NCBI RefSeq assembly: GCF_900106695.1
Contig: NZ_FNMZ01000005.1
Span: forward strand, 186,001-250,000
Source of the DNA: Albimonas donghaensis
GTDB lineage: Bacteria > Pseudomonadota > Alphaproteobacteria > Rhodobacterales > Rhodobacteraceae
Reading direction: 5' to 3'
Length of the DNA stretch: 64,000 nt
The translations under genes were made by a program, and so were the position numbers. Shown here in pieces: positions 2,341 to 61,847 of this stretch (positions within the stretch are counted from its first letter, which is position 1; each line of letters starts with the position of its first letter). The notes under the pieces were generated by a model. The model had not been told where the DNA came from and ran no database searches. It saw only the letters and a program-made list of their open reading frames with translations.

Positions 2341-2389
2341 GCGGCGCGGGCGCCCGGGTCGGGGACGGGCGGGCCGGTCGGCGCGCCGC
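2341..2389 (+). repeat. Palindromic intergenic element, copy A
   Basis: Arms GCGGCGCG (2341-2348) and CGCGCCGC (2382-2389) enclose a 33-base interior beginning GGCGCCCGGG; the 3' arm is followed by TCCCG as in several other copies. It sits between cbiG-cobJ and cobM. See the family finding. Confidence 0.7.
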
Positions 2390-2426
2390 TCCCGTCCCCG
2401 CCGTGCTCGCGCCGCGCGGGGCGACG

Positions 2427-4277
2427 TCACTCCGCCGCGGCGGGCGCGTCGATCCGCCTGGCGTAGCCGCGGGGCGTATAGAGCCTGCGCCCCTCGGCCC
2501 CCGCCCCGCGGTCGCCGGTCTCGAAGGCCCGGCTGCGCGAGGCGCCGACCAGCACCACGGTCATCATGTCGACCTCGTCGGTCCTCAGCCCCGCCAGCGT
2601 GCGTCGCCTGAGCGCCTCCTCCGGCCGCCCGAGGCTCCGGGCCAGCAGCACCGGCGTATCCGCGGGCCGATGCGCCAGCAGGATGTCGCGGGCGCGGTCC
2701 AGCAGCTCCCGGCGCCGGCGCGAGACAGGGTTGTAGAAGGCGATCACGAAATCCCCCTCCGCCGCCGCCTTCAGCCGTTTGAGGATGTCCTCGCGCGGGG
2801 TCAGCAGGTCCGACAGCGAGATCGCGCAGAAATCATGCCCCAGCAGCGCCCCCGCCCGGGCCGAGGCCGCCTGCAACGCCGAAACCCCGGGCGCGTTCAC
2901 CACCTCGACCCGACGGGCGGCGGCGGAGACCCCGGATCTATGCGTTTCCCGATCCAGAAGCTCCATAACCAATGCGCCCATGGCATAGATCCCGGCGTCG
3001 CCCGAGCAGATCAGGGCCACGTTCCGCCCCTCTCCGGCGCGTTCCAGCGCGTGGCGGCAGCGGGCCTCCTCCTCGCCCAGCGCGAAGTCGGCGCGGGGCT
3101 TGCCGGCGGCCAGCGGGCCCAGCAGGTCGATATAGAGCCCGTAGCCGATCAGTTCGTCGGCCTCCGCGATCAGGCGCGAAGCCTCGGGCGTGCGCCAGTC
3201 CGCCGCCCCCGGCCCGATGCCCACGACCGAGAGCCGCCCGCGACGCGCGCCCGCAGCCCCCGGCGCCGTCCCGATCTCCGCCGCCGCGCAGGTGGCCATG
3301 GCGGTCTTGGCCTTGGGCGCGACCAGCCGCCCGTCGGGCCCCGCGGCGGCCAGCGCCGCGCCCTCGGCGACGCCATGGCAGCCGGTTTCGGCGAACACCA
3401 CTTCGGACGGGGTTCGCAGGCGCCCCGCCTCGGCCTCCAGCTCCGCGGCGGGATGGAACCGCGCCGGCACGCCCAGATCGGCGGCGAGCGCGTGGACCGC
3501 GGCCTCATCCGCCTTCAGGTCGATGGACCGGACCGAGGCGACTTCCCAGGCCGATAGCCCGGCCTCCGCCAGCGTGCGCCGGGCGAGCCCGATCAGCTCC
3601 TCCGGCGGACAGCCCCGCGCGCAGCCGACGCCCAGCGCGATGCGCGCGCGCCGCCAGATCAGCGGGACGGCGCCCTCGACCGTCAGCACCACCGGGGCGC
3701 CCGGCTCGGATGGCGCGGGGGCGCGGGTCACCCGGTCGCCCAGCGGGGCCAGCCAGTCGGCCTTTCCCGACAGGCGCGCGGGGCGGCCCGCCAGCAGCCC
3801 GGCCATGGCGGGCTTCGCGTCCTCGGGGTTTTCCAGGCGCCAGCCCGCGGGCGGCTCGTCCAGCGCCACGCCGAGGCTCACGTCCCCCGCCGTGGTCACC
3901 GCCGCGACCCCGCCCAGCGCCTGCGCCAGCGTGCGGGCCAGCGCGTTGGCGCCGCGATGCCCGCCCAGCAGCGGCACGGCGGCCGCGCCGTCCTCGGCCA
4001 GCGCCACCACCGCGGGTTCCGTCCGCTTGTCGCCGATCAGCGGCGCCAGCGCCCGGATCACGATCCCCGCGGCCATCACCGCCACGATGGGGGTTCCGGA
4101 GGCGAAGAGCCCGCGCAGGCTCGCCGCCACGCCGTCGCCCGCGGCCTCCGGCCCCGCCGCCCCGCAGGGCGCCGCGCGTCCGCCGACCGCCGCCGCCGCC
4201 GCGCGCGCCGCCACCTCCGCCGAGGGCGAGAACCACACCACCGCCGGGACCCGGCCCGCCATTTCCGTCGCGCTCAC
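2427..4277 (-). CDS. cobJ: CbiG-CobJ fusion (cobalt-precorrin-5A hydrolase-like / precorrin-3B C17-methyltransferase)
   Basis: Two enzymes are joined in one chain of 616 residues. Residues about 62-335 are a full CbiG: the N-terminal part (AAGIVIRALAPLIGDKR), a middle segment (PAGWRLENPED) and the C-terminal CobE/CbiG domain (ALGVGCARGCPPEEL, AETGCHGVAEGAA). CbiG opens the lactone and removes acetaldehyde in the anaerobic route. Residues about 348-585 are CobJ/CbiH, the ring-contracting C17-methyltransferase, with VVGIGPG, CSGDAGIYAMG and FYNPVSRRR. I place the start at the GTG at 4277 because GAGGGGAG lies just upstream; an in-frame ATG at 4325 would add 16 residues without a better ribosome site. 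Gaps on both sides hold palindromic repeats, so coupling to cobI is loose. Confidence 0.9.
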   Translation of the reverse strand: MSATEMAGRVPAVVWFSPSAEVAARAAAAAVGGRAAPCGAAGPEAAGDGVAASLRGLFASGTPIVAVMAAGIVIRALAPLIGDKRTEPAVVALAEDGAAAVPLLGGHRGANALARTLAQALGGVAAVTTAGDVSLGVALDEPPAGWRLENPEDAKPAMAGLLAGRPARLSGKADWLAPLGDRVTRAPAPSEPGAPVVLTVEGAVPLIWRRARIALGVGCARGCPPEELIGLARRTLAEAGLSAWEVASVRSIDLKADEAAVHALAADLGVPARFHPAAELEAEAGRLRTPSEVVFAETGCHGVAEGAALAAAGPDGRLVAPKAKTAMATCAAAEIGTAPGAAGARRGRLSVVGIGPGAADWRTPEASRLIAEADELIGYGLYIDLLGPLAAGKPRADFALGEEEARCRHALERAGEGRNVALICSGDAGIYAMGALVMELLDRETHRSGVSAAARRVEVVNAPGVSALQAASARAGALLGHDFCAISLSDLLTPREDILKRLKAAAEGDFVIAFYNPVSRRRRELLDRARDILLAHRPADTPVLLARSLGRPEEALRRRTLAGLRTDEVDMMTVVLVGASRSRAFETGDRGAGAEGRRLYTPRGYARRIDAPAAAE

Positions 4278-4343
4278 AGCACGTCTCCCCTCTTGCAAAC
4301 GTCGCCGGTCCGCGTCCGTCGCCACCCGCGCCCCGGCCCCCGC

Positions 4344-4391
4344 GCGGCGCGGGCGCCCCGGCGGCCAGGGGCGCGCGGGCCGACGCGCCGC
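4344..4391 (+). repeat. Palindromic intergenic element, copy B
   Basis: Arms GCGGCGCG (4344-4351) and CGCGCCGC (4384-4391), total 48 bases, with interior GGCGCCCCGG and GCGCGCGGGCCGA segments that match copies A, C and D. It lies in the gap between cobI and the cbiG-cobJ gene and overlaps only the weaker upstream start option of the latter. Confidence 0.7.
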
Positions 4392-4397
4392 TCCCCC

Positions 4398-5156
4398 TCA
4401 GCCGACATGCGCGTCGGTCCCCGGCACCAGGATCATCGAAAAATACGGCGCCTCCGCCGGCGCCTCCGCCAGCGGCGCCACCACCTGCCCCTTCAGCGTC
4501 GCGTGGCCCACATAGACGGCGCGGCGCGCCAGTCCCTCGGCTTCCAGCAGCGCCCTCAGCCGGGGCAGCCGGCGTCCGACCTTGAGGATCGCCGCCCCGC
4601 CGCCCGCGGCGGTCATCACCCTGAGCCGCGCCGCCAGCTCCGCCTCCGGCATCGTCCCCGGCAGCACCGCCAGGCCCGCGTCCCGCGCCGCCAGGGGCCG
4701 TCCCGCCACCGCCGCCGAGGCGGTCAACGCGCTGACGCCCGGCGCCACCTGCGTGCGGAACCGCCCGGAAAGCCGCGCGAAAAGATACATGAAGGAGCCG
4801 TAGAAGAACGGGTCCCCCTCGCACAGCACCGCCACGTCCAGCCCGGCTTCGAGCCGCGCCGCGATCACCGCCGCCGCCCGGTCGTAGACCGCCTGCGCCG
4901 GCGCGCGGGCCGCCCGCATGGGGATCACGATGGGGATTTCCTCGACCCCCACGGGGATCGAGCCGGCGGCGATGGACCGCGCGAAGCTCTCGCCATGGTC
5001 CGGGGCCGGGTAGGCGATCACCGGGCAGGACCGGATCAGCCGATCGGCCTTCAGGGTCATCAGCTCCGGATCGCCGGGGCCGAGGCCCAGCCCGTGGAGC
5101 GTGCCGTGCGAGGGGTCGGGGACGGAAACGGGAACGGGATCGGGGGCGCCGCTCAT
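4398..5156 (-). CDS. cobI: Precorrin-2 C20-methyltransferase CobI
   Basis: This 252-residue SAM methyltransferase adds the C20 methyl group to precorrin-2 or its cobalt form. The signature GLGLGPGDPELMT is near residue 25, followed by LCEGDPFFYGSF and the PGVSALTASAA segment typical of CobI/CbiL. The ATG at 5156 overlaps the cobL stop codon by four bases (ATGA), which fixes the start and implies translational coupling; in-frame codons further upstream lie inside cobL and can be ignored. Downstream it is followed by a repeat-bearing gap before cbiG-cobJ. Identification is confident. Confidence 0.93.
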   Translation of the reverse strand: MSGAPDPVPVSVPDPSHGTLHGLGLGPGDPELMTLKADRLIRSCPVIAYPAPDHGESFARSIAAGSIPVGVEEIPIVIPMRAARAPAQAVYDRAAAVIAARLEAGLDVAVLCEGDPFFYGSFMYLFARLSGRFRTQVAPGVSALTASAAVAGRPLAARDAGLAVLPGTMPEAELAARLRVMTAAGGGAAILKVGRRLPRLRALLEAEGLARRAVYVGHATLKGQVVAPLAEAPAEAPYFSMILVPGTDAHVG

Positions 5157-6436
5157 GTTTCGAGGCTCCATTGCGTGACGTCCATGGAGGGGCGCCAGCC
5201 GGTGCGCGTTCCGACCGGGGCGGCGCGGCTGATCGAGATGCGGGTCAGGTCTCCGCCCAACCGGCCATGGAGCGCGAGCAGCAGCGCCTCGCTTTCCAGC
5301 GTCACGGCGTTGGCGACCAGACGGCCGCGCGGACGCAGGGCGGCGCGGGCGGCGTCGACCGCGGCCTCGCTCAGCCCCCCGCCGAGGAACACCGCGTCGG
5401 GCGCCGGCAGGCCGGCGAGCGCGTCGGGGGCGGTCCCCTCGCGGATCTCCAGCCCCGGCGTCCCCAGGCGGCGGGCGTTGGCGGCGGCCAGCGCGCGGCG
5501 GTCGGCGCGGGGCTCGATCCCCACCGCCCGGGCGCCGCGGGCGGCCCGCATCCACTCCACCGCGACCGAGCCGCAGCCGCAGCCCACATCCCAAAGCATC
5601 CCGCCCGGCAGGGGGGCGAGGCGGGCCAGCGTCATCGCCCGCACCTCGCGCTTGGTCATCACCCCGTCATGGGCGAAGAGGTCGTCCGCCAGCCCCGGCA
5701 CCGCCGGCGCCAGCCGCGCCTCCGGCCCCGCGACGCACGCCACCGCCAGGGTGGTCAGGCCGGGATGCGGCGGCAGCCGCCCCTCGCCCCAGGCATGGGC
5801 GGGGGCTTCGGTCCAGGCCTCCTTCGGTCCGTTGACATGGGAAAGCGCGCGCAGGGGGCTCGCGCCATAGCCGTCCTCGACCAGCAGGGCCCCGACCTCG
5901 GCCGCGGTCTCGGGCCCCGACGCGAGGATCAGCAGCCGCGCGCCCGGCTGGACATGGGGCCGGATGGCGACCGCATCGCGGCCATGCACGGTGAGCGGCG
6001 TGCAGGATTCGAACCGCCATCCCAAGCGCGCGGCGGCGAGCTGGAAGGCGGAGAGCTGCGGGTGGATGACCGCGTCGGGGAAGGCCTCGGCCAGCCGCGC
6101 GCCGGCGGAGAACCAGAGCGGGTCGCCGGTGACCAGCACCACGGTGCGGCGGCCTTCGAAGCCCGCGATGCGCTCGACGAGGGCGTTGAAGGGGGAGGGC
6201 CAGCGGATGCGCTCGACCGCGGGGCGGGCGGATGAGGCGTCGGGCGCGCCGGCGCCGGCCCAGCCGACCTCGCCCCGCGCCGCGGCGGCGGCCAGCGCCT
6301 CGTCCGAGGCCAGGGCGTGATGCCGGGCGCCGCCGACGATGACCTCGGCCGCGCCCAGCGCCGCGCGGGTGTCGGGGGAGAGCCCGGCGAGCCCGTCCTC
6401 CCCGATGCCGATGATCTGAAGCCAGAGTTCCGTCAT
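5153..6436 (-). CDS. cobL: Precorrin-6Y C5,15-methyltransferase (decarboxylating) CobL
   Basis: This bifunctional enzyme of 427 residues equals CbiE plus CbiT. It methylates C5 and C15 and removes the acetate carboxyl at C12. The N-terminal half is a tetrapyrrole methylase (IIGIGEDGLAGLSP, VTGDPLWFSAGARL). From about residue 260 the CbiT-type domain begins with MTKREVRAMTLARL and the SAM-binding loop WDVGCGCGSVAVEW. Length is normal for the fused CobL of proteobacteria. It overlaps cobH upstream and cobI downstream by four bases each, so all three are very probably co-translated. Confidence 0.94.
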   Translation of the reverse strand: MTELWLQIIGIGEDGLAGLSPDTRAALGAAEVIVGGARHHALASDEALAAAAARGEVGWAGAGAPDASSARPAVERIRWPSPFNALVERIAGFEGRRTVVLVTGDPLWFSAGARLAEAFPDAVIHPQLSAFQLAAARLGWRFESCTPLTVHGRDAVAIRPHVQPGARLLILASGPETAAEVGALLVEDGYGASPLRALSHVNGPKEAWTEAPAHAWGEGRLPPHPGLTTLAVACVAGPEARLAPAVPGLADDLFAHDGVMTKREVRAMTLARLAPLPGGMLWDVGCGCGSVAVEWMRAARGARAVGIEPRADRRALAAANARRLGTPGLEIREGTAPDALAGLPAPDAVFLGGGLSEAAVDAARAALRPRGRLVANAVTLESEALLLALHGRLGGDLTRISISRAAPVGTRTGWRPSMDVTQWSLET

Positions 6437-9377: not shown

Positions 9378-9732
9378 CACGCGTCCTTCCCGCCTGGCTC
9401 GGACGACGCGCGCGGACCCGACGGGCGCGGGCCCTTGGCCGGGCTCGACGCTCCCTCGACGACGGAGCCTCGCGCCCCCGGGATGGGTCGGCGGTCGGAT
9501 CCTTCCGGTCAGCCTCGCGGCGTCGTCAGTGGGGGCGAGGGGTAGCAGGGGCGAACGGGCCGGGCAAGGCGGGAGGCGACGGGTCGCGGGCGGGAGACGC
9601 CCGGGCCGGGGATCGGGCGGGGCGGCTCCGCGCGGGCCGGGAGCGGCGCGTCGACCCGGACGAGAGCGGCGCCGGCGCGCCCGCGCCGCGCGGCGCCCGC
9701 GAGAAGGCGGCGCCGGCCCCAGGCCGCAAGGC

Positions 9733-9882
9733 CGCGCCCGGTCCATCCGCGCCCGGTCCATCCGCGCCCGGTCCATCCGCGCCCGGTCCATCCGCGCCCG
9801 GTCCATCCGCGCCCGGTCCATCCGCGCCCGGTCCATCCGCGCCCGGTCCATCCGCGCCCGGTCCATCCGCGCCCGGTCCATC
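9733..9882. repeat. Perfect 15-bp tandem repeat, 10 copies
   Basis: Ten identical copies of CGCGCCCGGTCCATC occupy exactly 150 bases, followed by a partial eleventh unit. They lie upstream of cbiX in the divergent promoter region. Identity of all copies suggests recent expansion, so copy number probably varies between strains. The unit length is a multiple of three, which keeps spurious reading frames open on both strands. Confidence 0.95.
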
Positions 9883-9898
9883 CGCGCCACGCTGGCGC

Positions 9899-9945
9899 GC
9901 GGCGCGGGCGCCCGGGGGCCACCGGCGCGCGGGTGATCGCGCCGC
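9899..9945 (+). repeat. Palindromic intergenic element, copy C
   Basis: Arms GCGGCGCG (9899-9906) and CGCGCCGC (9938-9945), 47 bases in total, interior GGCGCCCGGG then ACCGGCGCGCGGGTGAT, followed by TCCCG. It directly abuts the 15-bp tandem array. Confidence 0.75.
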
Positions 9946-9973
9946 TCCCGACCCCGGAATTCCGCGGGTCCGG

Positions 9974-10002: not shown

Positions 10003-10050
10003 GAGGGGAACCCCCCGCGCCCCCGCCGGCGCGATCCCGAGGAGATTCCG

Positions 10051-11619: not shown

Positions 11620-11637
11620 ACCTTCCGCGTCGCGCAG

Positions 11638-11684
11638 GCGCCGCGTCCCGGACCCGCCAGGCCGCGCCGGCGCGCTCGCGGCGC
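11638..11684 (-). repeat. Palindromic intergenic element, copy D (inverted)
   Basis: Arms GCGCCGCG (11638-11645) and CGCGGCGC (11677-11684), 47 bases. Read on the minus strand its interior AGCGCGCCGGCGCGGCC matches the copy at 60277 (AGCGCTCCGGCGCAGCC). It begins 19 bases after the selO stop and may also act as a transcript-end hairpin. Confidence 0.7.
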
Positions 11685-11809
11685 GCTGAACCGGGGGCGC
11701 GTGCGTCGGGGCGCGCCGGCTGCGAGCACGGGTGAACAAAGGAGCGCCGACGGAATGACCGGGCGGAGAGAGGGGCGTCAGGGCGGGGCGACGCGTCGCG
11801 CGCCAGCGC

Positions 11810-13842: not shown

Positions 13843-14151
13843 GGGACGAGGCGGGGCGAGGCGGAGGACGAGGGAAGGGCGCGGGATGGGGCCCCCGCGC
13901 CCGCTTCCCCGGCCCCCCGCACCCGCTTCCCCGGCCCTCGGCCCGCGCCGCCCCGCCCCGCCCCGCCGAGGGCGCCAGCCGGGCGGCCCCGCCGAGCACA
14001 AGCAGCGCCGCGCATCGCCGCCCTGCCGCGCGTCGCCCCCGCGCGCGGCGATGCCCCGGGCTCGCGCGCCTCCGCCTCCCCTTCCTCGGCCTCGGTCCCT
14101 TCCCGACCGTCGCCGCTCTCGCCCCTCCGCCACGCTCGCCGTCCTCGCCAC

Positions 14152-14199
14152 GCGCCGCGGGCGCTCCGGCGCAACCGGGCGCGCGGGTCGACGCGGCGC
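14152..14199 (+). repeat. Palindromic intergenic element, copy E
   Basis: Arms GCGCCGCG (14152-14159) and CGCGGCGC (14192-14199), 48 bases. The interior GGCGCTCCGGCGCAACC and GGGCGCGCGGGTCGA closely matches other copies, while the arm sequence differs from copies A-C in a compensated way. Confidence 0.75.
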
Positions 14200-14279
14200 C
14201 CCCCTCTCCGCTCTCCCCGTCACCACCCCGTCCCCGCTCTCCCCATCCCCGCTCTTCCCGTCTCCGCTCGCCCTGCCGC

Positions 14280-15663: not shown

Positions 15664-15691
15664 GCCGGACGGCCGGGCGGAAGCGGAGGGA

Positions 15692-15740
15692 GGCGGCGCC
15701 CCGACCCAGGCGCCGTCTTCGCCCGGGCGCCGGCGCCGCC
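15692..15740 (-). repeat. Palindromic intergenic element, copy F (inverted)
   Basis: Arms GGCGGCGCC (15692-15700) and GGCGCCGCC (15732-15740), 49 bases, with GGCGCCCGGGCG in the minus-strand interior. It carries a third arm variant of the family and lies 28 bases after the HisD-family stop codon. Confidence 0.6.
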
Positions 15741-15810
15741 GTCGGGCCGGGCGCGCGCGGAGCCGTGTCCTCCTCCGCCGGCCCGCCCGGGACCTCGCGG
15801 CCCGCGCCCC

Positions 15811-15863
15811 CCGGTTCAGCGCCCCGGTTCGGCGCCCCTGGTTCCGCGCCCCGGTTCAGCGCG
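15811..15863. repeat. 13-14 bp degenerate tandem repeat, about 4 copies
   Basis: The string CCGGTTCAGCGCC recurs with small changes (CCGGTTCGGCGCC, TGGTTCCGCGCC, CCGGTTCAGCG) up to the edge of a palindromic element, in the gap between the HisD-family gene and purU. Confidence 0.75.
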
Positions 15864-15907
15864 CCGCGGGCGCCCGGGGTTCCGCCCGCGCGGCCTCGAC
15901 GCGGCGC
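15861..15907 (+). repeat. Palindromic intergenic element, copy G
   Basis: Arms GCGCCGCG (15861-15868) and CGCGGCGC (15900-15907), 47 bases, interior beginning GGCGCCCGGGG. It is the second copy in the same 405-base gap; the remaining bases up to purU show nothing else recognisable. Confidence 0.75.
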
Positions 15908-16068
15908 CCGGCGCGCCTCCCGCCCGATCCGCCCTTGCGCAGGTCGCGAACCGGCGCGAAAACGCCGCGACCGGACGCGGGGCGGGTCACGCGACGTGAC
16001 CATGATCCGCCCCAGCGCCGACCCCAAGCGAGTCCCCCAGCGAGGCGCGCGCCGATGAGGAGCCTGAG

Positions 16069-16986: not shown

Positions 16987-17022
16987 GCGGCCGGCGCCGG
17001 CGCGCCGCTTGCCCGCGAGGGC

Positions 17023-17070
17023 GCGGCGCGACGACCCTTGCGCCCAGCCGCGCCCGGGCGCCCGCGCCGC
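17023..17070 (-). repeat. Palindromic intergenic element, copy H (inverted)
   Basis: Arms GCGGCGCG (17023-17030) and CGCGCCGC (17063-17070), 48 bases. On the minus strand the interior begins GGCGCCCGGGCGCGGC, matching the copy at 9899. It starts 37 bases after the purU stop. Confidence 0.75.
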
Positions 17071-17353
17071 GGGGAACCCGGACGAGGGCGGCGACGTCTC
17101 CCCGCCTCGATCCGGGGCGCTGTTCGGAGGCGCTGACCGTGAGCTCATGCTCTCCCCGGCCCCCCCCCGCGCCTGGCCCCCGGTTCCGCCGGCGCCCGCC
17201 AGCCGATCCTGCCGCCGGGCCCCCCACGGGACGGCTCGTCCCCGGACAGCCCCGCGCCAGCGATGCGCGACCCGACAAGCCCGATCGCCGCCGGCCTCAC
17301 GTCACCCGCCGCCTCCACCGGCGCCCGTCGCCACAAGGCGCCCCCGCCGCCCC

Positions 17354-17399
17354 GCGCCGCGGGCGAGCGCGGGCCGCAAGCGGACCCTCGACGCGGCGC
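17354..17399 (+). repeat. Palindromic intergenic element, copy I
   Basis: Arms GCGCCGCG (17354-17361) and CGCGGCGC (17392-17399), 46 bases. The interior is more diverged than in most copies, but arm length, spacing and the CTCGA before the 3' arm agree with the family. Confidence 0.6.
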
Positions 17400-17442
17400 C
17401 CGCGCGAAGCCCGCCCCGTCGCGCGCCCGGCCCGGCGGCGCC

Positions 17443-28341: not shown

Positions 28342-29868
28342 TCAGGCGCCCGAGAACCGCTCCACCAGCAGGAATTTCTGCACCTTGCCGGTGGGCGTGC
28401 GGGGAAGCGGGTCCTGCTCGAGGATGAAGCGCTTGGGGACCTTGAACCCGGCCAGCGCGGCCCGGCAATGCGCGTCCAGCGCCGCGGGGGCGGCCGTGCC
28501 GATGATCAGCGCGGTCACGGATTCGCCCCAGAGCGGGTCGGGCAGGCCGAAGACGGCGCAGTCCTCCACCCCTTCGGCGCGCAGCAGCGTCTCCTCGACC
28601 TCCGCCGCGTGGACGTTCTGGCCGCCGGTGACGATCATGTCCTTCCGCCGCCCGTGGATGAACAGGTAGCCGTCGGCGTCCAGCGCGCCGAGATCGCCGG
28701 TATGCACCCAGCCGTCGCGGAACGTCTCAGTGGTCTTCTCGGCGTTCTGGAAATAGCCGCTGGCCGCGCCCGGAGAGCGGCCGAGGATCTCCCCCGTCTC
28801 GCCCGGCGGCAGATCGCGCCCGGCCTCGTCCACCACCCGCAGTTCCGAGAACAGGAGCGGGCGGCCGACGGAGCCCGGAGCCCGCGCCCGGTCCTCGGGC
28901 GTGGAGGCGACGAGGGCGCCGGTCTCCTGCATCCCGTAATATTCGTAGACCCGCCCGCACAGCCTGGCCTCGGTCGCGGCCCGGATCGGCTCGGGCAGGA
29001 TGGCGCCGGCGAAGACGATGCCGCGCAGGGAGGGCAGATCGGCGGTCCCGGCGCCGCGTTTCTCCTGCTCGGCCAGCATCATCGCGGCCATGGTGGGCAC
29101 GAGATTGAGGATCGTCACCCCGTGCCGGGCGATGAGATCGAGCGCGGCGCCCGCCTCGAAATTGGCCAGCACGTTGGGGATGCGGTGGAGGATCGCGGCG
29201 GCGATCCAGGCGAAGCCGACGCGCCCGAAGGCGGGGAAGACGGTCATCGTCACGTCGTGCCGGGACAGGTCGAAGGCCCGGAACATCGGATCGAGGGTCA
29301 CGTTGTTGTACTGGGTCAGCAGATAGGCCTTGGGCAGGCCGGTCGTGCCGGAGGTGAGGTTGAAATATTGCGGATCGTCCTCCTCGATCTCCACCGCCGG
29401 GGGCGTGGCGGGGGCGGCGTCGAGCAGGGGTTCGTAGCCGATCTCGCCGGGGCCGGGCGCGCCGTCGATGCGCACGGTCAGGCGGCGGGGGGTCGCGAAC
29501 CGGGCGACTTCGGGCGCGAAGCGGTCCTCGTAGACCAGACCCGTGGCGCCCATGGCGGCGATCAGCGCGTCCATCTCCGGCGCTGCGAGCCGATAGTTGA
29601 GCGGCACGCCCACGATCCCCGCGCGGGCCAGGGCGAAGTAGAGCTCCACGATCTCGGCCCGGTTGGAGACGAGGAAGGCCACCACGTCGCCCTTGCGGAA
29701 CCCCTGCGCGGCGAGCGCGTTGGCGAGCCGGTTGGCGCGGGCGTCGAGGTCCCCGAAGGAAAAGGTCCGCCCGGTGCCGGCGCAGATCGTGGCCGGGGCG
29801 TCGGGGCTGTGGATGGCGGCGTGGGCGAGCATGGCGCCGACGACCATCTTGCCGATGGAGCGTTGCAT
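28342..29868 (-). CDS. AMP-dependent acyl-CoA synthetase/ligase
   Basis: This 508-residue adenylate-forming enzyme activates a carboxylic acid, probably a fatty or aromatic acid, as acyl-AMP and then acyl-CoA. The P-loop-like motif is NLTSGTTGLPKAYL (about 165-178); YYGMQETG, GWVHTGDLGALDADGYL and HGRRKDMIVTGGQNVHAAEVEE follow; PRTPTGKVQK supplies the C-terminal catalytic lysine. Length and order are standard for the FadD/long-chain ligase group. The ATG at 29868 has GGGAG upstream. The gene is divergent from the hmu operon across a repeat-containing gap. Substrate is unknown. Confidence 0.9.
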   Translation of the reverse strand: MQRSIGKMVVGAMLAHAAIHSPDAPATICAGTGRTFSFGDLDARANRLANALAAQGFRKGDVVAFLVSNRAEIVELYFALARAGIVGVPLNYRLAAPEMDALIAAMGATGLVYEDRFAPEVARFATPRRLTVRIDGAPGPGEIGYEPLLDAAPATPPAVEIEEDDPQYFNLTSGTTGLPKAYLLTQYNNVTLDPMFRAFDLSRHDVTMTVFPAFGRVGFAWIAAAILHRIPNVLANFEAGAALDLIARHGVTILNLVPTMAAMMLAEQEKRGAGTADLPSLRGIVFAGAILPEPIRAATEARLCGRVYEYYGMQETGALVASTPEDRARAPGSVGRPLLFSELRVVDEAGRDLPPGETGEILGRSPGAASGYFQNAEKTTETFRDGWVHTGDLGALDADGYLFIHGRRKDMIVTGGQNVHAAEVEETLLRAEGVEDCAVFGLPDPLWGESVTALIIGTAAPAALDAHCRAALAGFKVPKRFILEQDPLPRTPTGKVQKFLLVERFSGA

Positions 29869-29940
29869 GGTCCGGTCTCCCTTTTGTCGGGCGTCGCGCG
29901 CGCCCGTTGTCATTGTCTTCCCCACCCCTCGCGGGGCGTC

Positions 29941-30055
29941 GTCGGCGCTGCGCCGCGCCACGGGGAACCGCCGGCGCTGCGCCGCGCCACGGGGAGCCGT
30001 CGGCCCTGCGTCGCGCCACGGGGAGCCGTCGGCCCTGCGTCGCGCGCGGGAAGCC
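29941..30055. repeat. 29-bp tandem repeat, about 4 copies
   Basis: Three full 29-bp units (29941-29969, 29970-29998, 29999-30027) and a slightly shorter fourth (to 30055) share GTCGGCGCTGCGCCGCGCCA followed by CGGGGAACC, with drift of a few bases between units. They fill the middle of the 445-base gap between the acyl-CoA ligase gene and hmuS; the remainder of the gap carries only a promoter candidate. Confidence 0.9.
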
Positions 30056-37981: not shown

Positions 37982-39115
37982 TCAGCGCAGCTGGAACGAC
38001 ACCGGGATGACGAAGGCGAAGCTTTCGCCGGCCAGCGCCTCGGGCGGGGACGGGTAGCGGCCCACGGCGCGCACGGCGGCCAGCGCCGCGTCGTCCAGCG
38101 CCGCGGCGCCCGAGCCGCCCTCGACCCGCGCCGCCACCAGCCGGCCGGAGCGGTCGAGGGTCATCAGCACGCGGGTCACGCCCTGGGTCCCGCGCCGGCG
38201 GGCGGCGCCGGGATAGGTCTTGCGCCGCTCGATCTCGGCGCGGATGCGGGCGCCCCATTGCTGGATGAGCGACCGGCGCAGGCCCGGATCCTGCGCGGTC
38301 CCGCCGCCGGTCCGGGCGGCGCCCGCCTTGCCCTCGCCCGCCGCGGCGTTCGGCGCGCCCGGCGCGCGCCCGTCGCCGCCCCCGCCCGAGGCCGCGCGGG
38401 TCGCGGGGGCGGGATCGGGTTCCGGCTTGGCGGCCGGTTCCGGGGCGGGCTTGGGGGCCGGTTTCGGATCCGGCTTCGGCGCGGCCCTGGAGGGCGGCGG
38501 CGGACGGCGCGCCGGCGCGGCCGCGGCCGCGGGGGCGCTGGCCGTGGCGGTCTCCGGTTCGGGTTCGGGTTGGGGCTCGGGCTGCGCCTCCGGTTCCGGC
38601 TGAGGCTGAGGCTCGGGCTCAGGTTCGGGCGGGGGCGCCGGCGTCGCCATGTCGAAGGAGGGCGCCGGGTTGGAGGTCGGCGCCGGCGGCGGCGTCTCGG
38701 CCCGCGGCGCGGGGGCGACCGGATCGGCGGGCGCCATGTCCTGCGGCACGGACGGCGCGTCGGGGGACGCGTCGGGAGGCGGAGGCGCCGCGTCGGGGCG
38801 CATCATGGCGAGCTCCTGCGGCGTCTCCGGCGTGGCGGGAGAACTCGGCGCGTCCGGGGCCTCGGCCACTTCCGGCGGCGCGTCCCATTGCGCGATCAGC
38901 GCGGCCAGGTCGTCGGTGGGGGCGGTGATCTCCCCCGCCGCGCCCGATCCGCCCTCGCCGCCCCCGGCGGAGCCGCCCCCGCCGCCGCCGCTGCTCGGCC
39001 CCAGCAGCGCCAGCGCCGCGCCCGCGCCATGCAGGCCCAGCGACAGCAGCGCCACGGCCGAGACCTCGACCGCCCGCCGCGCCGCCCATCCTCGCCTGCG
39101 CCGCATCCCGCTCAT
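37982..39115 (-). CDS. tonB: TonB-family energy transducer
   Basis: TonB spans the periplasm and passes proton-motive energy from ExbB/ExbD to outer-membrane receptors. The 377-residue protein has one N-terminal membrane anchor (about 16-38), a long Pro/Glu/Ala-rich spacer with PEPEPQPQPEPEAQ-type repeats, and a C-terminal TonB domain: YPGAARRRGTQGVTRVLMTLDRSGRL and YPSPPEALAGESFAFVIPVSFQLR. The ATG at 39115 overlaps the stop of the upstream exbD by four bases, which rules out the earlier in-frame codons. It ends the exbB-exbD-exbD-tonB operon. Placement beside the heme receptor and HasA-like gene suggests a dedicated rather than general TonB. Confidence 0.88.
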   Translation of the reverse strand: MSGMRRRRGWAARRAVEVSAVALLSLGLHGAGAALALLGPSSGGGGGGSAGGGEGGSGAAGEITAPTDDLAALIAQWDAPPEVAEAPDAPSSPATPETPQELAMMRPDAAPPPPDASPDAPSVPQDMAPADPVAPAPRAETPPPAPTSNPAPSFDMATPAPPPEPEPEPQPQPEPEAQPEPQPEPEPETATASAPAAAAAPARRPPPPSRAAPKPDPKPAPKPAPEPAAKPEPDPAPATRAASGGGGDGRAPGAPNAAAGEGKAGAARTGGGTAQDPGLRRSLIQQWGARIRAEIERRKTYPGAARRRGTQGVTRVLMTLDRSGRLVAARVEGGSGAAALDDAALAAVRAVGRYPSPPEALAGESFAFVIPVSFQLR

Positions 39116-55482: not shown

Positions 55483-55529
55483 TCGGCTTCCCTGTTGTGG
55501 CGCAAGTCCTCTGCCGGGACCCTGTCGCT

Positions 55530-55610: not shown

Positions 55611-55683
55611 GGGGCGATCCGGAAAACCTGCACATAACATGAACTTCCCGCAGGGCGGCATGGTCGCAGGCAGGCGGGAATTG

Positions 55684-55712
55684 TTGACGCTGACCGGAAA
55701 TGGACCGAATCT
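55684..55712 (+). promoter_or_regulatory. Candidate lysR-type gene promoter
   Basis: TTGACG (55684-55689), 17-base spacer, GAATCT (55707-55712), 31 bases before the start codon. It resembles the hmuS promoter candidate TTGACG-N17-GAATAC. Confidence 0.4.
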
Positions 55713-55743
55713 CGGGGCTGTTGACCGCGAGGATTGCGCACCG

Positions 55744-56637: not shown

Positions 56638-56665
56638 TCACGACCTGATCGCGGCCTGATCGCGG
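56633..56665. repeat. 11-bp tandem repeat overlapping the lysR-type stop codon
   Basis: CCTGATCACGA is followed by two copies of CCTGATCGCGG. The TGA of the first unit is the stop codon of the LysR gene. Confidence 0.8.
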
Positions 56666-56813
56666 CCCGCGCCCGCCTGACCGAAGCCCGCGCCCGATGT
56701 CGTCGTCGGGACGCGCCGCGACGACCCGCCCGCCCGTCTTCGCGCCTCCGCCCGCGGCGCGGGGCGCGGCCGGCGCCAGGCGGAGACGTCTCCAGCCTCA
56801 CCCCGCTCGCCCC

Positions 56814-56860
56814 GCGCCGCGGGCGCCCGGGCGACACCGGCGCGACGGCGGTCGCGGCGC
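56814..56860 (+). repeat. Palindromic intergenic element, copy J
   Basis: Arms GCGCCGCG (56814-56821) and CGCGGCGC (56853-56860), 47 bases, interior GGCGCCCGGGCGACACCGG. It lies just beyond the stop codon of the minus-strand SDR gene (28 bases) in the gap shared with the LysR gene. Confidence 0.75.
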
Positions 56861-56888
56861 CCCCCCTCGGGCCGGGGCGCGCGGCGGC

Positions 56889-57623
56889 TCAGATGTGCTG
56901 ACCGCCGTTGATCTCGATCTCGACGCCGGTGACATAGCTGCTCTCGGCCGAGCACAGGTAGTAGATTGTGCGCGCCACCTCCTCGGGCTTGCCGAGCCGG
57001 CGCAGGGGCAGCGCCTCGGCCAGCTTGTCGGTGCCGGGGGAGAGGATCGCGGTCTCGATCTCGCCGGGCGCGATGGCGTTCACCCGCACCCCCAGCGGCC
57101 CGAAATCATGCGCCATCTCGCGGGTCAGCGCCGACAGCGCCGCCTTGGAGGTCGCGTAGGCCGCCCCCGCGAAGGGATGCACCCGCGCCCCCGCGATGGA
57201 GGTGACGTTGACGATGGCGCCCTGCGCCGCCGCCAGTTCCACCCGCAGCCCGCGGGCCAGCACCACGGGAGCGAAGAAGTTGACGTGGAACACCTTTCCC
57301 CAGTCCCGCAGGTCGGTGGTCAGGGTCGAGAGCCGCTCCCCCTCCGGTCCCTTGGGCGAGATCCCGGCGTTGTTGACCAGCGCCTCCAGCTTGCCGCCCT
57401 TGAGGCGCGAGCGGATCTCGGCCACCGCCTCCATGGTCGAGGCCGGGTCGCCGAGGTCGATCTGGATATGATCCTCGGGCCCGGCCTCCCACGGGCAGTC
57501 CTCCGGGAACGGGTGGCGGGAGCAGGTGATCACCCGCCACCCGGCCGAGGAGAAGCGCTTGACGGTGGCGTGGCCGATCCCGCGCGAGGCGCCGGTCAGC
57601 AGCAGGGTCTTGCGATCGGGCAT
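56889..57623 (-). CDS. Short-chain dehydrogenase/reductase (SDR)
   Basis: The 244-residue classical SDR has the cofactor loop LLLTGASRGIGHATVKRF, NNAG in ALVNNAGISPKG, the catalytic Ser in IVNVTSIAGARVHPF and Tyr-Lys in YATSKAALSALT. The end YVTGVEIEINGGQHI is the family C-terminus. A position after the first strand bearing SRHPF rather than an acidic residue suggests NADPH preference. The substrate cannot be assigned. It converges with the LysR gene. The ATG at 57623 has AGGA upstream. The 362-base upstream gap contains a low-complexity GGGTCGGGCC stretch (57700-57760) and one possible palindromic element. Confidence 0.85.
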   Translation of the reverse strand: MPDRKTLLLTGASRGIGHATVKRFSSAGWRVITCSRHPFPEDCPWEAGPEDHIQIDLGDPASTMEAVAEIRSRLKGGKLEALVNNAGISPKGPEGERLSTLTTDLRDWGKVFHVNFFAPVVLARGLRVELAAAQGAIVNVTSIAGARVHPFAGAAYATSKAALSALTREMAHDFGPLGVRVNAIAPGEIETAILSPGTDKLAEALPLRRLGKPEEVARTIYYLCSAESSYVTGVEIEINGGQHI

Positions 57624-57799
57624 GGTCCGCGATTCCTGGATGCGCAGCGGGGATGCGCCGCGGGTCTGTGCATGGCGCGCGCGCCGGCCGGTCCGGGGGC
57701 GGGTCGGGCCGGGCCGGGCCCGGGTCGGGCCGGGGTCGGGGCCGGAGTCGGAGTCGGGGCCCGTCCGGATCCCCGAGGTCGGGGCCTGACGGCGGCGCC

Positions 57800-57845
57800 G
57801 CGGCGCCGGAGCGGGCGCGCGTCGCGGTCCACGTTGCGGCGCCGC
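57800..57845. repeat. Possible palindromic element, copy K (diverged)
   Basis: Arms GCGGCGCC (57800-57807) and GGCGCCGC (57838-57845) give the family length of 46 bases and the arm type of the copy at 15692, but the interior matches poorly. Membership is likely rather than certain. Confidence 0.4.
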
Positions 57846-57985
57846 GAAGGCCGGGGCAAGGGGCGCGCCGTCGCGGGGCCCGGGCGCGCCAGCGGGATCG
57901 CAGGGACAGCCCGGACCCGCCCCCTCCGCCCCCCCTTCCCGGCGACCCTGGAACCGGGCGCGGCGGGCGGGAACGCGCCTGCGGA

Positions 57986-58642
57986 TCAGCCCCCGACCAG
58001 GCCGAGCCGCGCCAGCGCCGCGGCCAGCGGCCCATGCATCCGCCAGATCGGATCGGGCCGGGCCGCGACCGCGCAGGTCGGGGTCGGGAGCGGCTCGGCG
58101 ATCACCGGGATCCAGGCGACGAGCGCCGCGGCGGGATCGACGGCCAGGTGCTCGGGGTCCGGCCTCAGCTCCATCGCCTCGGCCAGATCGCGGGCGAGGC
58201 GGCCGTAATGCATCGACGCGCCCTGGGCGCCGTCATGCCCCCCCGCCCGGCCGATCTCCGAGGCCGGCAGGGTCCGGCCCGGCGCCGCGGCATGGGCGAC
58301 GAGCATCGCCAGCCGCCCGTCCTGCGGGTCGACCTGGTCGAGCGCATCGAGAAATTCCTCGACGGAGGCGATGTCGACGGGTTCGGCCAGCCGCCGCGCG
58401 GCGACGAACCCGGCCCGGCGCGCATCGATCCGCGCCCGCAGCGCCGCCAGCACGCCGGCGCGCTGAGCCCCCGTCTCGCAGGCCAGCGCCCGCGGCGCGC
58501 CGTTGCGCCCGGGGCGCGAGGCCTCGCCTACCCAACCCTCTCCGACCCGCGTCACCGACAGCCGCCAGCCGCGATGCGGGACCGGCAGCGCTGCGGCGGA
58601 CCGGTCAGAACGCGGGGTGGACGAAAAGATGAGCGGGACCAT
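57986..58642 (-). CDS. Unknown protein, 218 residues
   Basis: I do not recognise this gene. The product has no signal peptide or membrane segment. The N-terminal part (GWRLSVTRVGEGWVGEASRPG) looks like a beta-hairpin, and the middle has helical segments (RAGVLAALRARIDARRAGFVAARRL, EEFLDALDQVD). A DPEHLAVDPAAALVAWIPVIAEPLPTP stretch follows. The start at 58642 is supported by GGAGG eight bases upstream and by a typical codon pattern. It has its own promoter region with a perfect inverted repeat, so it is probably a regulated single gene. The gene lies between an SDR and pdxH, which gives no functional hint. Confidence 0.7.
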   Translation of the reverse strand: MVPLIFSSTPRSDRSAAALPVPHRGWRLSVTRVGEGWVGEASRPGRNGAPRALACETGAQRAGVLAALRARIDARRAGFVAARRLAEPVDIASVEEFLDALDQVDPQDGRLAMLVAHAAAPGRTLPASEIGRAGGHDGAQGASMHYGRLARDLAEAMELRPDPEHLAVDPAAALVAWIPVIAEPLPTPTCAVAARPDPIWRMHGPLAAALARLGLVGG

Positions 58643-58673
58643 GACGCGGACCTCCGAGCGACGCACTTACTAT

Positions 58674-58691
58674 TATGAACGAATATTCATA
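58674..58691. promoter_or_regulatory. Inverted-repeat operator candidate
   Basis: TATGAA (58674-58679) and TTCATA (58686-58691) are perfect inverted arms with a six-base spacer, in a strikingly AT-rich spot 32 bases upstream of the unknown gene. A -35-like TTTACA lies further up on the minus strand (about 58703-58708). Confidence 0.55.
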
Positions 58692-59121
58692 GGTGGTCGC
58701 GCCTGTAAACAACGTGTCGTTTCGGCACATTCGGTTCGGCGGAGCGAGCGGCGCGGACGCCACAGCGCCCGTCGGGACGCTCGTGAAAGCCCTGGGTCCG
58801 ACTCATGGAGCGCCCGCAACAGGGCGGCGACGAGGCGACGCGGAGGCCATTGCGCGGCGGCGCCGGCGCGGCCTTGGCAATCGGACGGTCTTGGGAGGGG
58901 CTCGGGACGCGCCTGCCCGGGCGAGGCCCGGCGACGGCCGCGCTGGGGCTCGCCCCCCTTGGCGGCGGCGCCGAGGGGGGGCGCAAAGGCCAAGGCGCCC
59001 TGAAGCCGGGACGGGCGCGCGCAGGGCGCGCCCTCCGAAACGCCGCGAAAGCCCACGCGATCAGGGGGCGCGATCAGGGCCCGACCGGATCAAGGCCCGA
59101 CCCGATCAAGGCCCGACCGGA
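58692..59121. other. Intergenic region without recognised genes
   Basis: About 430 bases between the unknown gene and pdxH contain no supported gene on either strand. A GGGCGCGC/GCGCGCCC inverted repeat at about 59013-59033 and the tandem repeat below are the only structures seen. Confidence 0.5.
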
Positions 59122-59127
59122 TCAGGG
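59071..59127. repeat. 15-16 bp tandem repeat overlapping the pdxH stop
   Basis: About 3.5 copies of GATCAAGGCCCGACCG run from 59071 to 59127, with small variations. The last partial unit includes the pdxH stop codon. Confidence 0.8.
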
Positions 59128-59784
59128 ATTGAGGCGGCGCACCGTCCAGCGAGTCGCGTCGGGGTCCTCGCGCCGCCACTGGAAACGGTCATGCAGGCGG
59201 TGGGCGCCGTCGGCCCAGAACTCGATCTCCACCGGCCGGATCCGGAACCCACCCCAGAAGGGCGGCCGCGGCGGATTGATCGGGTGGCGGGCGGCGACCC
59301 TGGCGACCTCGGCCATCAGATGCCCGCGCGAGGACAGCGGACGCGACTGCTCCGACGCCCAGGCGCCCAGGCGCGACTGCAACCCGCGCGAGCGGTAATA
59401 GGCGTCGGCCTTCTCGCCCTCCTCCTTCACCACCAGGCCGCGGGCGCGGACCTGCCGGCGCAGGGACTTCCAGTGCATGACGAATCCGGCCTTGCCGGTG
59501 GCGGACAGCTCCTCGCCCTTGGCCGAGCCGTAGTTGGTGTAGAAGACGAAGGCGCCGCCGGGGGTCTCCGCCGGGCCCTCGATGGCCTTCATCAGCACCA
59601 TGCGCACATTGGGCAGGCCCGAGGCGTCGACGGTGGCGAGCGCCATGGCGGTGGGGTCGTTGACCTCCTCCTTCGCGGCTTCGGCGAGCCATTGGGTGGC
59701 GAGCGCGAAGGGGTCGTCGCCGGCGAACTTGCCCTCGCGGGCTTCGGTCTCGTCGATCTGGAAGGGCGAGGCGAGGACGGTCAT
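59122..59784 (-). CDS. pdxH: Pyridoxamine 5'-phosphate oxidase PdxH
   Basis: PdxH is an FMN enzyme that makes pyridoxal phosphate from pyridoxine or pyridoxamine phosphate. In the 220-residue protein [43 protein letters not shown] holds the FMN-binding start, [15 protein letters not shown] and [16 protein letters not shown] follow, and the C-terminus has [17 protein letters not shown] and HDRFQWRRE. The family usually ends RLNP, as here. I choose the ATG at 59784, with AGGAG nine bases upstream; longer in-frame options are Arg-rich and unlikely. Confidence 0.95.
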
Positions 59785-60229
59785 GGCGGCGCTCCTGCGG
59801 TCGGGGACCGGGAATAGGTCGGCCTGCGGGGGGCCGGGGTCAAGGGGGATGCGCGGGACGAGGCAGGCGCGGAGGGGACGCAGGCGCCGCATCAAGGGCG
59901 CGAGAGCGGCGGCGCGGCGCCCGCGGCGCACGGCCAGGGGGGCGCCCGGCGGCGACCGTCTCCGGGGGGAGACGTGGGGCCGGGATCCGGGGGCCAGCGC
60001 CGCCGCACGGGAGGGGTCGGGGTGGGCACAGGGGGGGGCACGGGGGGGGAGCGGGGCGACGACCGCTCGCCCTCCCGCGGGGCGCGGGCATCCGCGAGGG
60101 GGCCCGCAGCGCCAGGATCGGCGGCGCGCGCCCGGCGCCCGGAGTCATTGCGGGGACCTCTCCGGCGACAGGCGCCCCGGCGCTCCAAGTCCCCGCGCGC
60201 CCGCCGTCGGTCCGACCTGCGGCGACCGC

Positions 60230-60283
60230 GCGGCGCGGGCGGCCCGAGACCTCGACGCCGGCGCCCCCGGCGAAACGCGCCGC
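60230..60283 (+). repeat. Palindromic element, copy L (composite with M)
   Basis: Arms GCGGCGCG (60230-60237) and CGCGCCGC (60276-60283), 54 bases. Its 3' arm overlaps the 5' arm of the next copy, so two elements share one arm and could form alternative hairpins. Confidence 0.5.
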
Positions 60284-60324
60284 GAGCGCTCCGGCGCAGC
60301 CGGGCGGGCGGGCCGTCGCGGCGC
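60277..60324 (+). repeat. Palindromic intergenic element, copy M
   Basis: Arms GCGCCGCG (60277-60284) and CGCGGCGC (60317-60324), 48 bases, interior AGCGCTCCGGCGCAGCC and a TCCCG flank. It lies in the 588-base gap between pdxH and the threonine-dehydratase family gene; the remainder of that gap holds only GC-rich DNA without supported genes. Confidence 0.75.
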
Positions 60325-60372
60325 TCCCGCCCCGCGCCACCCGCATCCCCGACGGGCGGAAGCGCCCCCGCG

Positions 60373-61344
60373 TCACGCCGTCGGCGTCTCCCCCGCCAGC
60401 ACCCGCGCGTATTGGGCCGCGTCGACATTGCCGCCCGACAGGATCACCCCGACCCGACGCCCGCGCATCCGCTCCCGCTCCGCCAACAGCCCGGCGAGCC
60501 CCACGGCCCCGGCGCTCTCAGCCATGTTGTGGGTGTCGGCATGGAGCGCGCGCATCGCCTCGGCCACCTCGTCCTCCGAGACCCGCACGATCCGCGCCGC
60601 CCCCTTCAGCAGCACGTCCAGCGCCTCCTCCGAGGGCGCCCGGCAGGCCACGCCGTCGGCGAAGGTCGGCGCGGTCTCGGTGCCCACCACCCGGCCCGCC
60701 TCGAAGCTCAGCGCATAGGCGGGGGCGGCCTCGGCGACCACGCCCACGATCTCCGTCTTCAGCCCCAGCAGGTCGCGCGCCGTCACCAGACCGCAGGCGC
60801 CGGACCCCATGCCGATGGGCGCGTAGACCGCGTCGAGATCCGGCTGCGCGGTGAAGAATTCCAGCGCATAGGTGGCGACCCCGCGCACCAGCAGGGGATG
60901 GAAGGGGCCGATGGCGTGCAGGCCCTCGTCGGCGGCGACGCGCATCGCCTCGGCGCGGGCGGCCTCGAAATCGTGACCGTGCTCGATGACCTCGGCGCCC
61001 CAGGCGCGGGCGGCGGCGTTCTTCTCGACCGAGTTGCCATGCGGAACCCAGACCTTGACCGGGATGCCATGGGGGCGGGCGGCGAAGGGGATCGACTGGC
61101 CGTGATTGCCCCGCGTGGCGGTGGCGATGCCGGGAGCGCCCCCCGCCCGGGCGAGATCGTCCAGGTAGACCAGCCCGCCGCGCAGCTTGAAGGCGCCGGC
61201 GGGGGTGTGGTTCTCGTGCTTGACCCAGACCTCGGCGCCGGTGCGGGCGGCCAGAAGCGGCCAGGCGAATTGCGGGGTCGGGGGGACGCGGCGGCCCACC
61301 AGTTCGGCGGCGTCGCGGAGCTGGTCCAGGGTGAACAGGGTCAT
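60373..61344 (-). CDS. Threonine dehydratase family PLP enzyme
   Basis: This 323-residue type II PLP enzyme resembles threonine/serine dehydratases and ectoine-pathway EutB proteins. The PLP lysine is in TPAGAFKLRGG (Lys53), the substrate loop in TRGNHGQSIPFAA, the phosphate-binding glycine loop in PIGMGSGACG (about 175-184), and a Ser/Gly near the end in VILSGGNVD. It has no C-terminal ACT domain, so it is of the catabolic, unregulated length. The ATG at 61344 has GGAG upstream. It is divergent from fabI across a 503-base gap. Substrate is not certain. Confidence 0.87.
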   Translation of the reverse strand: MTLFTLDQLRDAAELVGRRVPPTPQFAWPLLAARTGAEVWVKHENHTPAGAFKLRGGLVYLDDLARAGGAPGIATATRGNHGQSIPFAARPHGIPVKVWVPHGNSVEKNAAARAWGAEVIEHGHDFEAARAEAMRVAADEGLHAIGPFHPLLVRGVATYALEFFTAQPDLDAVYAPIGMGSGACGLVTARDLLGLKTEIVGVVAEAAPAYALSFEAGRVVGTETAPTFADGVACRAPSEEALDVLLKGAARIVRVSEDEVAEAMRALHADTHNMAESAGAVGLAGLLAERERMRGRRVGVILSGGNVDAAQYARVLAGETPTA

Positions 61345-61847
61345 GCGGGGGCTCCGGTGGCTGCATCGGCGCGGGGAAGCGGGGCCGCAGCGGGCCCGGC
61401 GCGCCCCGAACCTAGCGGCGGCGCCCTCGACGCGCCAGCGCCGCGGGGGAGGAAGGAGGGGACGGGACGGTCGCCTTGCGCGCGGCCGGCGCCCCGATCC
61501 TCCGCCGCCCCTCCTTCCGCCGGCCGCCGACCGCCGAGACAGGCGCCCCCGCGCCCCAGCGCCCGCTCCCCGCGCCCGGCGCTCGATGCGGAGAGACGGC
61601 CCCCCCGGGCGATCCCCTGGCGACGCCGCGCGGGCGGACGCGCGCCGCCGGCGCCCGGCCGACGCGCGGCTCCCGCCCTGCCCCCCACCCGACCGGCCCC
61701 GATTCCGGTCCGTCCGGCACCTTCCGCCCTCCGGCCTCGCCGCGCCGCGCTGCGACGCATCCTTGATGCCGGCCCGCGGATGTCATAGACGAGCCCTCAT
61801 GCGGAAGGGCCCCGTCGCGGGCCGTGAAACGGGCGGGAGACAACGAT
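61345..61847. other. Divergent region before fabI
   Basis: No gene is supported in this 503-base gap between the dehydratase gene and fabI. It contains one palindromic element; no clear promoter hexamers were found near fabI. Confidence 0.5.
61625..61670 (+). repeat. Palindromic intergenic element, copy N
   Basis: Arms GCCGCGCG (61625-61632) and CGCGCGGC (61663-61670), 46 bases, a further compensated arm type; CGGCCGA before the 3' arm and TCCCG after it match copies A-C. Confidence 0.65.

Follow-up and report, generated by a model that had tools for sequence, protein, structure and literature searches.

Repeat units in the window

The window analysed here, a 64,000-nucleotide stretch of the Albimonas donghaensis genome (contig NZ_FNMZ01000005.1, positions 186,001 to 250,000; GC content, 73.9%), carries a family of intergenic palindromic repeats, each built around a hairpin with an 8-bp stem. 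Twelve of these had been reported as main copies in a first-pass annotation of this DNA. In all 12, the two 8-base arms are exact reverse complements of each other, and the sequences align as a single family. Three more copies had been overlooked, at 9637 to 9691 (minus strand), 56707 to 56762 (minus strand), and 59878 to 59931; two candidates listed as weaker, at 57800 and 60230, match neither of the two models used here. The first model, R1, was derived from 14 copies in the window, including all 12 main ones, and 14 further copies in the genome; 4 of its 12 base pairs lack support. The second, R2, has 87 positions and includes six window copies in its alignment, among them those at 14152, 15692, 17023, 56814, and 60277. 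Both models match all 12 main copies (R2 only weakly at 15829 to 15913, with 27 bits and an E value of 0.1), although these matches hold partly by construction, as window copies seeded the models.

The previously assigned length of 46 to 49 bases is too short for the repeat, as another 30 nt are conserved on its head side. A comparison of 128 copies shows this conservation in the 30 bases that precede the hairpin but in none of the 80 that follow the tail. The repeated entity is therefore a half-unit of about 87 nt that consists of a 30-nt head, the hairpin, and a tail. In the clearest copies, the head reads GGAGAC...GGCGCCCCCGGTTCC. The 8-bp stem closes an asymmetric loop, mostly of 30 to 33 nt, and is followed by an outward tail, often TCCC. 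R2 recovers the window copies together with their heads.

Two plus-strand units, at 2306 to 2395 (hairpin, 2341 to 2389) and 4309 to 4397 (hairpin, 4344 to 4391), each lie between two minus-strand cobalamin genes. The newly recognized minus-strand unit at 9637 to 9722 (hairpin, 9643 to 9689) is the left member of a head-to-head pair with the plus-strand unit at 9866 to 9951 (hairpin, 9899 to 9945); between them, at 9732 to 9881, a 15-base unit, CCGCGCCCGGTCCAT, is repeated head to tail about ten times. The tail of the minus-strand unit at 11632 to 11717 (hairpin, 11638 to 11684) is 13 nt away from the SelO stop codon. The plus-strand unit at 14118 to 14205 (hairpin, 14152 to 14199), a seed of R1, is the top one of the 150 listed genome matches to this model (65.9 bits). 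Next comes a pair that combines a minus-strand unit with the rarer arm GCGGCGCC (15687 to 15772) and a plus-strand unit of a different arm type (15829 to 15913; hairpin, 15861 to 15907). The minus-strand unit at 17017 to 17103 (hairpin, 17023 to 17070) and the plus-strand unit at 17319 to 17405 (hairpin, 17354 to 17399) form a widely spaced pair. There is no R1 match of at least 25 bits between 18000 and 56700, a span of nearly 39 kb that separates two copy-rich stretches, and copies look clustered along the genome.

At 56707 to 56866, two half-units form a compact 160-bp inverted composite. Its left half is the overlooked minus-strand unit at 56707 to 56795 (hairpin, 56713 to 56760), and its right half is the plus-strand unit at 56780 to 56866 (hairpin, 56814 to 56860). 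The two heads overlap, as they do in the tightest pairs in general (spacers of 47 to 49 nt), and the centre, GGAGACGTCTCC at 56782 to 56793, is a perfect palindrome. The RNA of positions 56713 to 56860 folds as one long hairpin (z-score, -4.76; none of 200 shuffles is as good), and single hairpins fold only slightly better than their shuffles (z-scores of -0.82 to -2.74 for the six tested). The remaining units are the third overlooked copy, at 59878 to 59965 on the minus strand (37.2 bits with R1 and 41 bits with R2), and two plus-strand units matched by both models, at 60243 to 60330 (hairpin, 60277 to 60324) and 61590 to 61676 (hairpin, 61625 to 61670; arm type GCCGCGCG). No Rfam family matches the window at its gathering score; between 14000 and 17500, the single sub-threshold match is to a snoRNA (E value, 2.8) and lies outside the units.

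Copy number and phyletic distribution

The R1 search finds at least 150 copies in the genome (G000) among the matches listed. In 20 tiles taken at regular steps from six large contigs, there are 12 copies in 400 kb at an E value of 0.01 or less, which corresponds to about 150 in 5.01 Mb. Strong copies exist outside the 150 listed (e.g., L102 14076, 49.4 bits), so the true number is somewhat above 150. The more detailed counts below come from a tile search with R1 that produced 176 matches at E values of up to 1. Of these, 148 were kept, in 814 kb including the window, a density inflated by the choice of the first 40 tiles partly for known copies. Six of the 28 left-out matches score at least 25 bits: L087 9650, L078 3656, L073 1 to 29 (cut off), L104 2641, L075 17017, and L101 16754. 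Subsets of the kept copies were made at cut-offs of 28, 30, 34, or 40 bits.

At an E value of 0.01 or less, R1 recognizes at least 85 and at least 73 copies in two congeners (G001 and G002) and at least 17 in G006, a member of another genus (139 candidates scored per genome). Tiles of G001 contain 8 copies in 400 kb. At least one G006 match is coding (L067), and this genome has head-to-head pairs at L225 (16119 minus/16215 plus), L228 (6215 minus/6325 plus and 2281 minus/2387 plus), and L226 (870 minus/982 plus), with gaps of 41 to 56 nt and scores of 23 to 50 bits. Across the bacterial family, at least 17 of 295 genomes, including G000 and G006, have a match at an E value of 1e-4 or less (19 candidates scored per genome); the other 15 have 1 to 3 matches each at 0.01 or less. 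However, outside the four genomes named above, 22 of the 30 loci examined overlap a called gene and were not counted as copies. Among the remaining eight, L252, L263, and L271 by eye resemble unrecognized gene starts and L253 a piece of a gene seen elsewhere; none of the 30 loci was counted. The secure range of the family is thus G000, G001, and G002 in one genus and G006 in another. Three exact pattern matches are found in viral contigs (24 to 31 bits with R1); plasmids yield no match to the one copy that was used as a query. The earlier proposal of a REP/BIME-like (repetitive extragenic palindromic/bacterial interspersed mosaic element) family of dispersed intergenic palindromes in this lineage is supported.

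In 40 comparisons of orthologous gaps, a copy is present in G000 only in 7 (representing 4 distinct gaps), in the relative only in 1, in neither in 32, and in both in none. The clearest case is the gap 2236/2427: the flanking cobalamin genes overlap by 4 bp in both G001 and G002, whereas in G000 a copy lies in the 190 bp between them. The other compared gaps measure 135 bp in G000 versus 105 and 315 bp in the relatives, 529 versus 460 and 441 bp, and 343 versus 146 bp in G001. One gap thus corresponds to a 4-bp gene overlap in both relatives, another is 197 bp shorter in one relative, and two others show no clear length excess.

Placement relative to genes

The family is intergenic: 145 of the 148 kept copies overlap no called gene by more than 10 bp, with genes called by our own codon-usage script rather than a standard gene finder. 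Nine of these copies are located at the edge of a tile and were excluded from the neighbour-gene counts. Copies less than 500 bp apart are predominantly arranged head to head, 38 of 43 neighbours being minus-plus (one of them overlapping and doubtful), 4 plus-minus, 1 plus-plus, and none minus-minus. Of 90 occupied gaps, 55 hold a single recognizable half-unit.

Convergent gaps are favoured. Among gaps of at least 100 bp, a copy is found in 26 of 50 convergent, 49 of 225 tandem, and 18 of 93 divergent gaps; among those of 200 to 500 bp, the respective fractions are 17/23, 30/112, and 7/54, all from tiles partly chosen for copies. The median distance of the tail is 29 nt to a gene 3' end (n = 76) and 136.5 nt to a 5' end (n = 60). 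This bias, together with the paucity of T-runs typical of intrinsic terminators (within 150 nt after 12 of 325 gene ends in the G000 sample, gaps of at least 100 bp), would suit a transcription insulator, terminator, or mRNA-stabilizing hairpin that is selected between genes and offsets the scarcity of T-tract terminators. Such a function is unlikely, however. Of 55 single copies, 42 lie with the tail, rather than the head, closer to a gene, but the tail points toward a 3' end in 26 and a 5' end in 29, and in tandem gaps in 14 and 19, respectively; this lack of orientation preference relative to transcription argues against a directional RNA signal. In addition, two copies (hairpins at 2341 and 4344) lie within the cobalamin gene run, none of the seven orthologous comparisons with a copy in G000 retains it, and the gap bias can also be explained by avoidance of promoters.

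Pairing of the arms

Arms alone prove nothing in DNA of this composition: exact 8-bp arm pairs with a span of 44 to 52 bases form 52 clusters in the window, as against 27 to 52 in 20 dinucleotide shuffles and 40 to 58 in 20 order-3 Markov sequences. The comparison with shuffled GC-matched sequence, proposed in the first-pass annotation as a potential refutation, thus goes against arm pairs by themselves, which are at chance level. The shared interior that it had described tells a different story, as the arms combined with GGGCGC and TCGA give 17 genome matches versus none for the reversed pattern. A profile of the 5' half of the unit (head, 5' arm, and first loop bases) finds 138 matches versus 10 in reversed sequence. 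The complement of a copy's own arm is present in 125 of these 138, and complements of other copies' arms are found in 53 of 2,760 draws from the same set; the profile was trained on copies obtained with an arm-aware model, which introduces a mild bias. In held-out G000 tiles, there are 14 matches versus 2 in the control, and the own-arm complement is found in 11 of the 14; by eye, the other 3 lack the rest of the unit. Here, 60 of 280 draws gave a different-arm complement, seemingly owing to an overlap of some 3' arms with a second arm type. In G001 tiles, the corresponding fractions are 6/9 and 8/180. The probability that these are chance palindromes of a GC-rich genome, as the background frequency of the bare arm pairs might have suggested, is negligible, and the stem pairing is real.

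The compensatory nature of the arm changes is likewise genuine, but their variety is small. In a scan of all column pairs in 140 aligned copies, the top four are arm pairs. Of the cells in the stem (helix 1), 99.5% are paired; there are 107 two-sided versus 2 one-sided changes, in an alignment that was fitted to the structure, and the two one-sided (wobble) changes are found among about 1,190 arm cells. Two base-pair positions account for 98 of the 107 two-sided changes, and three arm types dominate the 140 rows, GCGCCGCG (84 copies), GCCGCGCG (38 copies), and GCGGCGCG (9 copies), so that independent events may be few. GCGCCGCG is also present in 27 of the 32 best matches from tiles of G001, G002, and G006, and a possible additional matched type, GCCGCGGG/CCCGCGGC, is seen in G001 (L312; half-profile score, 15.2). 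An inner helix, placed by hand in R1, was rejected, as it is paired in 21.7% of cells and no inner stem is prominent in the all-pairs scan.

Members of a pair tend to have the same arm type: 26 of 33 pairs match, compared with a mean of 15.2 and a maximum of 23 in 10,000 permutations. Together with the two-sided arm switches, mostly from G-C to C-G, and with loops that partners do not have in common, this is in line with template switching between inverted repeats during replication. Such quasipalindrome correction could keep the arms complementary in place of selection and would also homogenize the arms of partners. In PMC8794818, mutation patterns in RNA genes are described as consistent with template switching, which makes compensatory changes possible without selection; PMC8604942 reports loop inversion as an accompaniment of the mechanism. 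No loop inversion is seen in the present family, which argues mildly against template switching: in 137 of 143 copies, the expected side gives the higher head score, and the tail side is clearly favoured in just 2 copies, both with poor scores. Moreover, the arms hold to a few sequences despite saturated loops, a pattern that is not predicted by pairing correction alone. Template switching is therefore a possible explanation of the pairing, albeit not a probable one. It could nevertheless account for the arm changes, and with wobble changes nearly absent and no orientation preference, the earlier conclusions of an RNA-structural element and of selection on a hairpin do not follow.

Another reading is that the composites are orientation-neutral boundary elements, each inverted pair folding as two hairpins or one long cruciform and acting as a bidirectional transcription insulator or a topological barrier, with the identity of all four arms of a pair coordinated. 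They would have this role in a genome of 74% GC with few T-tract terminators, but it appears rather improbable.

Search for a mobilizing enzyme

The first-pass annotation also recommended a search for a REP-associated tyrosine transposase (RAYT). None is found in G000: the Pfam Y1_Tnp model PF01797 has no match there and a sub-threshold one only in G001, and the RAYT model NF047646 detects nothing in G000 (best score, 11 bits; cut-off, 80), G002, or G006. As PF01797 rates the true RAYT of G001 below its cut-off, the absence rests mainly on NF047646; with assemblies that are 97 to 99% complete, a missed gene is possible. The G001 RAYT scores 187.7 bits with NF047646 (cut-off, 80). Its gene lies at L192 1345 to 2044 (G001:C1, approximately 135.2 to 135.9 kb) and has inverted, GTAG-tagged REP-like pairs on both sides. 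These GTAGGGCGCATT...AATGCGCC repeats have the classical REP element layout and are unrelated to the hairpin family, no copy of which is found in the 12 kb around the gene (best score, 18.4 bits). Accordingly, the hairpin family is not the cognate repeat of that RAYT. No transposase was seen in the 11 of 15 genes inside widely spaced head-to-head copies that were scanned.

It is thus very unlikely that the family is a true REPIN population moved by a RAYT. The inverted doublets, one of which folds into a single long hairpin, the intergenic location, and the presence of a RAYT in the genus all speak for such a population, but the RAYT searches in G000, G002, and G006 were negative, there is no GTAG beside the stem, and doublets are no better conserved than singlets. 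The negative RAYT search in G000 and the lack of young copies, combined with this equal conservation, argue against active REPIN behaviour.

Comparison with known repeat families

Enterobacterial repetitive intergenic consensus (ERIC) sequences and similar repeats of the miniature inverted-repeat transposable element (MITE) type are imperfect intergenic palindromes of 100 to 200 bp without a transposase gene of their own. The composites described here share these features. To our knowledge, their sequence is unrelated to ERIC, and, unlike ERIC, this family has many gaps with only one half-unit (55 of the 90 occupied).

Like REP, BIME, and REPIN sequences, the family consists of short intergenic palindromes of limited range whose inverted dimers can form long hairpins; a bias toward placement downstream of genes and between convergent genes is a further similarity (PMC3733652, PMC3116915). 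Inverted doublets are over-represented, as in REPINs. In contrast to GTAG-tagged REPs and REPINs, there is no GTAG consensus: the tails are TCCC, CTCC, CCGG, etc., and the head side mostly has CGC before the arm. The large loop, the conserved 30-nt head, and the lack of a detectable RAYT in G000 are further differences from REP and REPIN sequences, and the family's singlets are as conserved as its doublets, unlike what PMC3116915 reports for REPINs.

A further parallel concerns the CGTC-tagged REPs, found mostly in alphaproteobacteria according to Di Nocera 2013 (PMC3733652). These too are mainly head-to-head dimers with 8- to 9-bp stems, for which no dedicated transposase was found. However, as described there, their loops comprise 4 to 5 bases, nearly all of them have AT in the first two positions of the stem, the CGTC tag is unpaired, and the tail is mostly CCA, whereas the alignments of the present family show G/C arms, a loop of 30 to 33 nt, and no unpaired CGTC tag. 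Searches of the open-licence literature for the motif and for comparable elements in related bacteria returned nothing relatable to the family under the terms used, and passages of PMC12306157 yielded nothing on these bacteria.

Other features of the window

A tRNA-Gly (gcc) of 95 bases called by ARAGORN at 38484 to 38578 lies inside a gene predicted on the other strand and is probably spurious. A direct repeat with a 29-base period and three overlapping 56-base matches is found at 29932 to 30045, just upstream of the called start of the minus-strand gene at 28342 to 29868.

Origin and maintenance of the family

Taken together, these data suggest that the family is probably an old, lineage-specific, REP/ERIC-like intergenic repeat of inverted pairs that spread at some time in the past and still maintains its stems. 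The ancestral unit would most likely have been a composite of about 160 bp formed by two half-units head to head. Some enzyme may have copied such composites into intergenic gaps in the past, insertions being tolerated mainly where they broke no promoter, i.e., in convergent gaps and at gene 3' ends. Afterwards, the loops would have drifted while the stems stayed paired. Persistence of the stems would be due to selection rather than to mutation bias, although the present data do not distinguish selection on the stem from template-switch correction.

Several observations weigh against this scenario. No mobilizing enzyme was found in G000, where only tyrosine transposases were sought genome-wide, and one set of 10 enclosed genes consists of 8 ordinary ones and 2 without a Pfam match. 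No young copies are seen, the identity to the nearest copy having a median of 0.74 and a maximum of 0.84 among 105 copies. Paired copies (45.9 bits; n = 66) are no better conserved than unpaired ones (45.1 bits; n = 78), with 72% of permutations at or below the observed difference. Only 8 of 15 spacers of up to 90 nt exceed shuffles in self-complementarity by at least 0.07. Loops of partners are no more alike than random ones, and arm type is not reflected in a tree from the non-arm columns (37 changes, as against a mean of 39.1 and a minimum of 33 after shuffling), although single columns do follow it. Finally, the orthology sample comprises just four distinct gaps, between genes that are approximately 75 to 84% identical among the best matches listed. 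The excess length of the G000 gap is mixed in the seven comparisons with a copy (-180 to 197 bp; median, 88 bp), and the 32 comparisons without one range from -198 to 279 bp (median, 17.5 bp). As gap lengths support insertion unevenly, confidence in an old, once-spread repeat is slightly lowered.

The family adds to the known diversity a REP-like repeat that has large loops and for which no RAYT was found; in a congener, a RAYT is accompanied by different repeats of its own. It offers a clean case in which to ask how intergenic palindromes are dispersed and keep their pairing when they have no dedicated transposase. Because the four arms are matched within a pair while the loops are saturated, the choice between selection and template-switch correction should be testable in close strains.

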